42,440 bases of DNA from Flavobacteriia bacterium. Lineage in GTDB: Bacteria; Bacteroidota; Bacteroidia; Flavobacteriales_D; Crocinitomicaceae. The stretch covers positions 1 to 42,440 of the forward strand of contig JACOTM010000096.1 of the NCBI GenBank assembly GCA_016178305.1, in the 5' to 3' direction. This document shows, piece after piece, positions 13,587 through 15,807 of this stretch. Made by a program: the position numbers and the translations under genes. Below the pieces are notes generated by a model that saw only the letters and a list, made by a program, of their open reading frames with translations, was not told the DNA's origin and ran no database searches. Within the stretch, counting starts at the first letter, position 1. Every line of letters begins with the position of its first letter.

Positions 13587-14474
13587 TTAGAAATAAACTT
13601 CTTTGTATTCATTCGTTGACACTCTTCTTTTATAAGCTCTTTGAATTAAATAACTATTTGACTCTTCCCATTTTAAAGGAAAATTATATGCATCCATTTT
13701 TTTTATTCCAACTACTTCAGCTGCTGTTCCACAAAAAAATGCTGCATCTGCATTCAATACTTCTTCGGGTTTAAAAAACCGTTCCTCTACTTCCAATTTC
13801 AATTCTTTTGCTAATTCAAAAACAGTTGATCTAGTGATACCTGCTAAAATATTTCCAAGAGGTGCTGTCGTTAATTTTCCATCTTTCTCAAAAAAGAAAT
13901 TTGCACCTGGACCTTCTGCTATATACCCATTCATATCTGTTAATAGTGCTTCATCAAATCCTTTTGCTTTTGCTTCAGAAGTTGCTAAAATGCTATTCGT
14001 ATAATGTCCAACTACTTTCGCTTCCACATGACATGCTCTCGGATTTGGTCTTTGATATGAAGACAACATTACATTTAACATATTATCCCCTAAATATTTC
14101 CCCCAACTCCAAGCAGCAATTAAAACATGTACTTCTTTTGTAGGAGTTAAGGACATATTTTCACCCAAGTAAACCAAAGGTCTGATATAAGCATCTTTCA
14201 AGTTATTTTTTTCTAATACTTGATACGTCAATCTTTCTAATTCTTCACTTGTGTAAGGTAATTCTATATGCATCATTTTTGCTGAATAATGCAAACGATC
14301 AAAATGTTCTTTCGCTTTAAAAACCCTTGTTCCATCTGGAGTATCATACGACCGAATACCTTCAAACACACCATTTCCGTAATGCATTGTTTGATTGTAC
14401 AATCCTACATGAGCATCTTTTATTTTCAAAAAATTCCCGTCTAGAAATACTACTGTTTCTTCATTGTAATACAT
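13587..14474 (-). CDS. ilvE: Branched-chain amino acid aminotransferase
   Basis: A fold-type IV PLP aminotransferase that performs the last step of Ile, Val and Leu synthesis and the first of their breakdown. The PLP lysine is K153 in CHVEAKVVGHYTNS. HYGNGVFEGIRSY (31-43) is the family signature and GNILAGITRSTV binds the cofactor phosphate. The length of 295 aa is normal. It is the first structural gene of the operon and starts 31 nt after the second leader terminator. Read-through of both attenuators would be needed to express it and everything downstream. Confidence 0.95.
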   Translation of the reverse strand: MYYNEETVVFLDGNFLKIKDAHVGLYNQTMHYGNGVFEGIRSYDTPDGTRVFKAKEHFDRLHYSAKMMHIELPYTSEELERLTYQVLEKNNLKDAYIRPLVYLGENMSLTPTKEVHVLIAAWSWGKYLGDNMLNVMLSSYQRPNPRACHVEAKVVGHYTNSILATSEAKAKGFDEALLTDMNGYIAEGPGANFFFEKDGKLTTAPLGNILAGITRSTVFELAKELKLEVEERFFKPEEVLNADAAFFCGTAAEVVGIKKMDAYNFPLKWEESNSYLIQRAYKRRVSTNEYKEVYF

Positions 14475-14504: not shown

Positions 14505-14537
14505 ATAAAAAAAAGCCTTTCTACTCGAGAAAGGCTT
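14505..14537 (-). terminator. Attenuator terminator 2, before ilvE
   Basis: On the minus strand the perfect stem AAGCCTTTC / GAAAGGCTT (14513-14521 and 14529-14537, 7-nt loop) is followed by eight or more T residues. It lies 25 nt after the leader-2 stop codon. A competing pairing is available: GAGGGAGG (14557-14564), overlapping that stop codon, can pair with CCTTTCTC (14527-14534) of the 5' terminator arm, with two G-U pairs. Confidence 0.9.
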
Positions 14538-14562
14538 CATTATTTTTTAAATAATTCCTCCC

Positions 14563-14700
14563 TCAACTCAAAAGCTGAATAATAATAATAATAATGATCA
14601 CACTAATGACATTGATAAATTTCAATTTCAAACCTTTATTTTGAGTCCCAAATGTATTTTTCATTTTATACATATAAATTATATTTTTTTCCATTTTCAT
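14563..14700 (-). CDS. ilv leader peptide 2 (Ile-rich)
   Basis: A short ORF whose end reads FINVISV, seven consecutive Ile codons, then QLLS and TGA. Nine of the last 18 residues are Ile, with two Val and two Leu. Three in-frame ATGs are possible: 14700 (45 aa, used here), 14694 (43 aa, best spaced after GGAAA) and 14664 (33 aa). The Ile run ends about 14 nt before the stop, and the terminator lies directly after. This is the classical layout of a transcription attenuator in which a ribosome starved for charged tRNA-Ile stalls and lets the antiterminator form. Translation is inferred, not shown. Confidence 0.85.
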   Translation of the reverse strand: MKMEKNIIYMYKMKNTFGTQNKGLKLKFINVISVIIIIIIIQLLS

Positions 14701-14799
14701 GATTTCCAAAACTTTAAACACCTAATCAAATCTCTGTTTATAAATTATTTACATTTTATTTTTCAATGCTTTCAAAATAAAAACCAATAGTTGTAAAAC

Positions 14800-14831
14800 A
14801 AAAAAAGCTCCCCATTTTTGGGAAGCTTTTT
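14800..14831 (-). terminator. Attenuator terminator 1, distal
   Basis: On the minus strand a 12-bp stem AAAAAGCTTCCC / GGGGAGCTTTTT (one T-G wobble, about 6-nt loop) runs into a T-run (14801-14806). It lies 21 nt after the stop codon of leader peptide 1. A short competing pairing, TGGGA (overlapping the leader stop) with TCCCA in the stem, is possible but weak. Confidence 0.85.
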
Positions 14832-14852
14832 CATATCGTAATTATACAATAA

Positions 14853-14921
14853 TTATCCCATCGCATTGTTTTGAATGACAATGACAGAAATGACAGAAAT
14901 AATAATTGTGCTACTTTTCAT
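14853..14921 (-). CDS. ilv leader peptide 1 (Ile/Val-rich)
   Basis: A 22-codon ORF reading MKSSTIIISVISVIVIQNNAMG and stop. Six Ile and three Val codons lie between residues 6 and 16. The ATG is preceded by an A-rich stretch (AAATAAATAAA) typical of Bacteroidota initiation sites and lies about 15 nt after the predicted transcript start. It is followed directly by terminator 1. The mixed Ile/Val composition suggests that it senses both charged tRNAs, whereas leader 2 is mainly an Ile sensor. Confidence 0.85.
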   Translation of the reverse strand: MKSSTIIISVISVIVIQNNAMG

Positions 14922-14942
14922 TTTATTTATTTGTTTGCGGGA

Positions 14943-14976
14943 CAAAGTTATGTTAAAATAAATTTAACTTCCAAAA
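14943..14976 (-). promoter_or_regulatory. Promoter of the ilv operon
   Basis: On the minus strand an exact TAACTTTG -7 element (14943-14950) is preceded by TTTTGG (14971-14976) with 20 nt between. Transcription would start near 14936 and reach leader peptide 1 at once. No second TAnnTTTG match is seen between the two leaders, so one promoter probably serves both attenuators. The plus-strand stretch from here to 15288 contains no recognisable gene. Confidence 0.8.
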
Positions 14977-15288: not shown

Positions 15289-15807
15289 ATGCAAGTACAA
15301 TTCAATTTTGAGATAAATGACTGGATGGCATTTCAGGAATACCATTTAAGTCAATCCAAACAATTCAAAAAAACAAAATTAATTTCAACATTAATCGTTC
15401 CAATTGTTTATGGTTTCTTTATTATAAATGATCTACTTAAAGGCCATGTTGATGTTATTCTAACTTCCATTTTTACTATTGTGTCCGTGTTATGGTTACT
15501 ATTTTATCCTAAAAGATTAACCGTTCGAACCTTGAAAAAAGTAAGAAAAATATTGGAAGACCCTGCAAATTCAAATGTGCTTGGAACACATACTATTGTA
15601 TTTGATAATGAGGGAATAAATCTCACAAAACCTACGATGCAAAACTTCATCAATTGGGAAGGTATTATCAAAGTAGAACAAACAGATGCTTATATTTTTA
15701 TTTATAACACGACTGTCACCGCTATAATTTTACCTAAAAATAAAATTATAAATCAGCTGAATGAACTCAATCATTTATTAGAAGAAAAATTCCCAATCCA
15801 AAGCTAA
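15289..15807 (+). CDS. YcxB-like two-TM membrane protein
   Basis: A 172-aa inner-membrane protein. An N-terminal beta-like stretch (MQVQFNFEINDWMAFQEYHL) is followed by two close hydrophobic segments at about 31-47 and 57-76. A soluble C-terminal domain contains VFDNEGINLTKPTMQNFINW and VEQTDAYIFIYNTTVTAIILPK. This order (short N-terminus, TM hairpin, PH-like YcxB domain with a conserved W before I/K and a closing IILPK) fits the YcxB-like family (PF14317). Function is unknown. It stands alone, convergent with the following gene. Confidence 0.7.
   Translation: MQVQFNFEINDWMAFQEYHLSQSKQFKKTKLISTLIVPIVYGFFIINDLLKGHVDVILTSIFTIVSVLWLLFYPKRLTVRTLKKVRKILEDPANSNVLGTHTIVFDNEGINLTKPTMQNFINWEGIIKVEQTDAYIFIYNTTVTAIILPKNKIINQLNELNHLLEEKFPIQS

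Follow-up and report, generated by a model that had tools for sequence, protein, structure and literature searches.

Textbooks treat leader-peptide attenuation as a standard mechanism and usually show a single switch for each operon. In the enterobacterial attenuators (trp, his, ilvGMEDA, leu), a short leader with many codons for the amino acid that the operon makes is combined with an alternative antiterminator and an intrinsic terminator, and starvation leads to read-through. In 2004, Vitreschak and colleagues reportedly predicted single attenuators in some Bacteroidetes.

The trp leader-peptide attenuator is described in section 11 of PMC3641672. In 2010, the authors of PMC2965389 stated that they knew of leader-peptide systems demonstrated in Proteobacteria and Actinobacteria only, and leader-like short ORFs are mentioned for Bacteroides (PMC7366714). 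In Salmonella mgtCBR, a single leader RNA holds two short leader ORFs that each serve as an attenuator; the signals of mgtM and mgtP are ATP and proline, and the stem-loops are unlike intrinsic terminators (PMC3641672). Tandem T-box riboswitches are found on ilv, leu, trp and thrS of Bacillota, doubles being commoner than triples (PMC12452182). Tandem metabolite-binding riboswitches with two different ligands are described for Bacillus clausii metE (PMC3641672, section 11), and the rimP-leader of some Gammaproteobacteria has a second terminator upstream, in tandem, with a potential antiterminator (PMC2965389). Nothing on tandems was found in PMC1262725 and PMC4833913. No tandem leader-peptide attenuator of Bacteroidota was found in the open-access literature, in agreement, for that literature, with the initial annotation of this locus, which knew of no described arrangement of this kind in the phylum.

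The window analysed here (the whole stretch of DNA, 42,440 nucleotides) very probably holds two complete ribosome-mediated (leader-peptide) transcription attenuators, which would act in series behind one promoter and control ilvEDBNCA. Like the enterobacterial trp, his, ilvGMEDA and leu attenuators, each unit has a short leader rich in product codons and an antiterminator opposed to an intrinsic terminator, such that starvation would let the polymerase pass. Unlike in those attenuators, two and sometimes three complete units stand in series, the antiterminator strand lies on the stop codon, and a conserved protector (1:2) hairpin was not found. The locus shares with mgtCBR two leader-ORF attenuators in one leader RNA, but here the amino acids read seem to be the same for both units, each of which has its own intrinsic terminator. 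It shares with the tandem T-boxes two or three attenuators of one class in series before branched-chain amino-acid genes, but T-boxes bind uncharged tRNA directly, whereas the sensor here would be a translating ribosome. Two terminators in series in one leader are also seen at B. clausii metE, where, unlike here, the sensors are the two-ligand riboswitches, and the second tandem terminator with its potential antiterminator is shared with the rimP-leader, which lacks an amino-acid leader peptide.

Anatomy of the ilvE upstream region

All features lie on the minus strand. The first gene of the operon, ilvE (14474-13587, ATG at 14474), scored above the cut-off of NCBIfam NF005146 / TIGR01122 and is followed by ilvD (13568-11895), ilvB (11795-10101), ilvN (10007-9483), ilvC (9367-7868) and ilvA (7824-6580), each passing the cut-off of one or more NCBIfam models. 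From gene order and strand, ilvEDBNCA is probably one transcript. Elsewhere, ilvD was found 3' of ilvE on the same strand in 73 of the 76 named loci with room for it, including 17/17 strict tandem ones. The gene upstream in the window (15289-15807) is oriented oppositely, and the leader region therefore belongs to the ilv operon.

The single promoter (14976-14943), identified by direct reading, consists of TTTTGG (14976-14971), a spacer of 20 nt and TAACTTTG (14950-14943), and is of the TTTG-TAnnTTTG kind, which we take to be the Bacteroidota consensus. Leader peptide 1, the distal one (14921-14853; MKSSTIIISVISVIVIQNNAMG), has 22 aa with 6 Ile and 3 Val and the stop codon TAA; its segment TIIISVISVIVI was aligned by eye, without statistics, with the distal leaders NIIPSIIxVVVI of other genera. 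Its last codons contain the unit-1 antiterminator strand TGGGA (14860-14856), which ends just ahead of the stop codon and is opposite TCCCA (14823-14819), and it is followed by intrinsic terminator 1 (14832-14801; 14 pairs, 5 of them G-C, then TGTTTTAC; fold -18.7 kcal/mol). Leader peptide 2, the proximal one (14664-14563; MKNTFGTQNKGLKLKFINVISVIIIIIIIQLLS), has 33 aa and the stop codon TGA, or 45 aa if read from an ATG at 14700; the ATG at 14664 aligns with the starts of relatives' leaders. Seven consecutive Ile codons (ATC and six ATT) lie within it. The unit-2 antiterminator strand (14565-14557; TGAGGGAGG) includes the stop codon and is opposite CCTTTCTCG (14534-14526), and intrinsic terminator 2 (14538-14512; 11 pairs, 4 G-C; fold -13.7 kcal/mol) has a T-run to 14506. 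Both leaders are thus short ORFs rich in operon-product codons upstream of ilvEDBNCA, with an intrinsic terminator 3' of each. Every element listed in the initial annotation (promoter, two leaders, two terminators, ilvE) was recovered by coordinate, and at 22 aa and 33 aa both leaders are, as it had said, shorter than gene-calling limits; the antiterminator strands of the two units, which it had missed, are an addition.

In most units of the survey described below, a strand at or beside the leader stop codon was complementary to the 5' arm of the terminator. Duplexes of this strand with its own terminator arm averaged -11.7 kcal/mol, against -7.0 for shuffled strands (147 units); 58/147 units beat all 50 shuffles, and 85/147 stood at or below 2 of 50. 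Summed cognate pairing beat summed cross pairing in 25/25 clean two-unit loci (mean -23.7 vs -14.5, p = 1.2e-5), and the strand tracked its own, differing stem (GGATGG/CCATCC, AGGAAGT/GCTTCCT, GATACAG/CTGTATC, GAAGCGGC/GCCGTTTC). A trp-type 1:2 protector hairpin beat all 50 shuffles in 15/157 units; for the two units of the window, its value was reached by 13 and 38 of 50 shuffles.

The reach of the ribosome serves as a yardstick for the distance of an antiterminator. It is given as 12-15 nt from the P site (PMC3641672, section 11). In the 137/147 units with a clear helix, the antiterminator helix started a median of 14 nt (IQR 12-16) past the first base of the last Ile/Val codon, which is about the reach of a stalled ribosome, so that the helix would be accessible with a ribosome stalled there and hidden with a ribosome at the stop codon. 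Judged by pairing and placement, an antiterminator that would exclude the terminator under ribosome control was found across the set; in the window it appears clear for unit 2 and weak for unit 1. The unit-2 antiterminator region folds at -14.6 kcal/mol vs -13.7 for its terminator. The unit-1 duplex is weak (-7.6 kcal/mol vs -5.2 for shuffled strands), strand 2 on arm 1 (-10.4) does better than the cognate strand 1 (-7.6), and the antiterminator region folds at -9.5 vs -18.7 for the terminator, which is 9 kcal/mol stronger.

The following mechanism is proposed for each unit. With ample amino acid, the ribosome would pass the Ile/Val codons, reach the stop codon and cover the antiterminator strand; the terminator would then form and RNA polymerase would stop. 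Under a shortage of charged Ile-tRNA or Val-tRNA, the ribosome would stall on the upstream Ile/Val codons and leave the stop-codon strand free to pair with the 5' arm of the terminator, and the polymerase would pass. Full ilv transcription would require the passing of both units.

Recurrence and conservation of the units at ilvE loci

For the survey, 150 ilvE loci were assembled and reduced to 137 distinct regions, each with at least 450 nt upstream. Seven duplicates (L018, L028, L075, L076, L077, L080, L083) and six loci with less than 450 nt upstream (L027, L043, L049, L079, L082, L146) were left out; L043, with the tail of an upstream terminator at the contig edge, was not scored as tandem. 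L030, L044 and L045 (the same places as L043, L041 and L042) and L149 (ilvE start missing) were not entered, and matches in G109 and G225 lacking the ilvE start were not used. The survey is a non-random sample (genome searches at E 1e-60, plus the best 80 among the matches listed), many of its rows are close relatives, and its counts are loci, not independent events. The strict unit detector called an ATG ORF of 11-50 aa, rich in Ile/Val/Leu, with a G-C-bearing hairpin and a T run at most 75 nt further on; a relaxed detector used weaker thresholds and ATG/GTG/TTG starts.

The strict detector found 89 single, 26 double and 2 triple loci and 20 with none, that is, at least one unit in 117/137 regions and two or three in 28/137. 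The relaxed detector called at least two units in 40/137 regions, and 35 remained after reading removed five (L026, L122, L124, L130, L151) because the first 'leader' resembled the end of an upstream gene or sat in unrelated sequence. These 35 tandem loci comprise 13/56 from the family of the window, 3/10 from elsewhere in the order sample (the family/order split was assigned by hand) and 19/71 named records among the matches listed. Named carriers include Tenacibaculum, Chryseobacterium lathyri, C. defluvii, Pontibacter mucosus, P. indicus, Roseivirga pacifica, Myroides sp. 1354, Flavobacterium sp. NRK F7 and a Bizionia MAG. The triple units are those of genome G110 and the Bizionia MAG.

At the Myroides sp. 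1354 locus (L097), the last 560 nt before ilvE contain a distal unit and then two identical copies of the next unit, and a scaffold gap (a run of N) falls inside the repeated unit. A whole attenuator seems to have been duplicated recently here, and further copies were possibly lost in assembly. The locus was excluded from the leader and cross-pairing statistics, the strict detector having misassigned its first ORF, with the run of N within.

Conservation was examined in both stems. The proximal stem (20/32 units aligned) had 94.0% of cells paired, against 38-76% in slid alignments, and both-side changes in 5/10 pairs, matched by 0/500 shuffles. The distal stem (14/32 units aligned) was 90.2% paired with both-side changes in 2/8 pairs, reached by 43/500 shuffles; its covariation score was reached by 1/500. 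In these alignments covariation appears strong for the proximal stem and weaker for the distal one. Codon differences between the leaders of relatives were commonest at position 3 in 6/7 groups, many of them Ile-Val swaps, and in the proximal leaders of one group (g18) position 1 differed as often as position 3; the pattern is modest evidence that the leaders are translated.

The two units also differ in build. TGA is the stop codon of the last leader in 27 of the 28 strict tandem loci and of the first leader in only 4. Pro-Pro near the leader end was found in 13/27 proximal, 0/27 distal and 2/89 single leaders, many of the carriers being related (Tenacibaculum); L091, L092, L095, L103, L107 and L088 are examples of such proximal leaders. 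Pro-Pro before the proximal stop might delay the ribosome while it covers the antiterminator strand. One set of relatives has GCCATCC/GGATGGC as its distal stem and GCCCTTCTC/GAGAAGGGC as its proximal stem, and some lineages have kept only one unit type: the proximal in the genus of the window and its neighbours, the distal in several G22-type genomes. Six members of the family (L064-L069, from G384, G363, G402, G314, G316 and G394) have single units with the distal-type stem GCCGTCC/GGATGGC, which would fit a loss of the proximal unit. On an ilvE tree made by a quick method, 33/129 rows were tandem and at least 14 changes were needed; ilvE together with its leader may have moved between lineages.

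The distal unit was found in 0/9 of the other genus members with ilvE, but occurs in further genera, families and orders. Lack of conservation of leaders or stems in close relatives, which had been named at the outset as evidence against the arrangement, was thus seen in part. In the nearest relative (G069), a promoter that looks similar by eye lies immediately ahead of the only leader. Because the other nine genus members lack it, the distal unit of the window has either survived late or been gained late. The same absence favours a reading in which only the proximal unit works and the distal one is a decaying relic, or gives a short stand-alone transcript of no regulatory consequence, as do the weaker of the two antiterminators in the window and an inter-unit gap grown to 137 nt. 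This reading is unlikely: the distal unit of the window retains an intact leader and the stronger terminator (-18.7 vs -13.7), the only promoter motif sits before it, so that the transcript must pass it, distal leaders and stems are conserved across families in other genera, and several single loci carry only the distal-type stem (L064-L069).

Amino-acid signals, promoter position and chance

The initial annotation had taken unit 1 to read Ile and Val and unit 2 mainly Ile, and had offered a logical AND or a graded response. The leaders of the window invite that division (6 Ile and 3 Val in leader 1, a seven-Ile run dominating leader 2), but it did not hold over 27 tandem loci, where distal leaders averaged 6.3 Ile, 2.6 Val and 0.9 Leu and proximal leaders 6.7 Ile, 2.0 Val and 1.5 Leu, with no significant difference in paired tests (Ile p = 0.26, Val p = 0.06, Leu p = 0.11). 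A two-input AND gate, with units reading different amino acids, is therefore decidedly unlikely, and different signals per unit, of the mgtCBR type, were not found in the Ile/Val/Leu counts of these 27 loci. Both leaders seem, from their codons, to read the same amino acids, and a steeper graded response therefore fits better than the AND gate. A product of two similar responses would be expected because the leaders read alike; multiplied, they would lower the leak in amino-acid-rich conditions and make the switch-on steeper. On comparative sequence grounds, the serial arrangement is real and conserved, and the switch itself is of a known type: the structural claim stands and the two-signal logic does not.

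The motif TAnnTTTG was found at most 110 nt before the first leader in 17/28 tandem loci (shuffle mean 3.2, max 8) and before the leader in 49/89 single loci (shuffle mean 8.9, max 17). Between units it was found in 0/30 gaps, with 0.9 expected. The gap from terminator to the ATG of the next leader had a median of 24 nt and was at most 45 nt in 23/30 and at most 60 nt in 25/30; gaps of up to 45 nt are too short for a promoter and a ribosome site. The window has the longest of the 30 gaps (137 nt), which offers room for a separate promoter driving the proximal unit, with the units in parallel; no TAnnTTTG lies inside it, and the empty gaps elsewhere, 25/30 of them no longer than 60 nt, make such a promoter very improbable. 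Since gaps are short and the motif stands before the first unit and never between units, one promoter followed by two switches is the simplest reading, as judged by motif. The earlier proposal of two attenuators in series behind one promoter is borne out by the doubled leaders (35/137), the position of the promoter motif and the cognate antiterminators, and the separate promoter that would have contradicted it did not appear as a TAnnTTTG in any of the 30 gaps.

In a generic terminator scan of 13 kb, the two longest minus-strand stems were terminators 1 and 2; terminator counting alone is not convincing, since its total was near expectation (6 found vs 5.1 expected). Whole units were scored in shuffles that preserved dinucleotides. 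With the relaxed detector, 2000 shuffles of the 900 nt upstream of ilvE in the window gave 27 with one unit and 0 with two, and 2740 shuffles over the survey regions gave one unit in 10 and two in 0. The strict detector found one unit in 17 of 4110 shuffles and two in 0, and not a single unit in 238 control stretches, taken from the ilvE coding sequence and, where present, from the region 900-1800 nt upstream. That fortuitous hairpins and Ile-rich frames in A+T-rich spacer produced the layout, as the near-expected terminator total might suggest, is practically negligible and already contradicted by two units arising in 0/2000 window-spacer shuffles and 0/4110 over all spacers and by conservation in other genera.

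Other operons and the design of ilv leaders

Leader units were also sought at other operons. Among 29 hisG matches in the same family, a truncated locus (L182) and one below the cut-off (L183) were left out of the scan; 25/27 scanned loci had a His-rich leader and a terminator, all single. A second 'unit' at L166 was rejected, its leader being the end of a protein, which leaves 0 true doubles. Within the family, ilvE was doubled in 13/56 loci vs 0/27 for hisG (Fisher p = 0.007, on non-independent rows). The leader-peptide mechanism is general in the group, and of the operons examined ilv alone showed stacking. The genome of the window has its own single His-leader attenuator (L162, 1100-1298; G000:C24), with a leader ending in ...FTQLHHHHFHTSIQASRK, a terminator and then hisG.

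At homoserine dehydrogenase loci, a Thr-, Thr/Ile- or Met-rich leader unit was found in 0/30. In the genome of the window, a Thr/Ile-rich short ORF (...ITTILTTTTITTITL; L214, 653-816; G000:C102) precedes a gene of the bifunctional type with a homoserine-dehydrogenase domain and an open frame of 819 aa; the hairpin 3' of the short ORF is doubtful.

No Rfam family reached gathering in the window or in the loci of 8 relatives. The 24 weak matches (E up to 5; best Phe_leader, 30.4 bits vs a cut-off of 55) overlap the terminators, on one strand or the other, and were regarded as chance hits; a T-box riboswitch matched neither at gathering in the window nor among these 24.

Serial leader-peptide attenuation may, more tentatively, be a standing design of Bacteroidota ilv operons, with distinct distal and proximal units, lineage-specific loss of either, fresh proximal duplications (the triples of G110 and the Bizionia MAG and apparently Myroides) and a multiplicative, steeper response to Ile/Val starvation set by switch copy number. 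In such a design, a proximal Pro-Pro pause before the stop would hold the ribosome on the antiterminator strand.

The loci are of practical use for annotation, the leaders lying below gene-calling limits and, for the window and the 8 relatives, outside Rfam. Related bacteria that carry the switch once, twice or three times ahead of ilvE form a natural series, which includes the named cultured genera Tenacibaculum, Chryseobacterium, Pontibacter and Roseivirga. The series makes testable whether stacked identical attenuators sharpen a response or cut leak, as multiplied pass probabilities predict, and it would parallel the tandem T-boxes on ilv and leu of Bacillota, arrived at with a different sensor.
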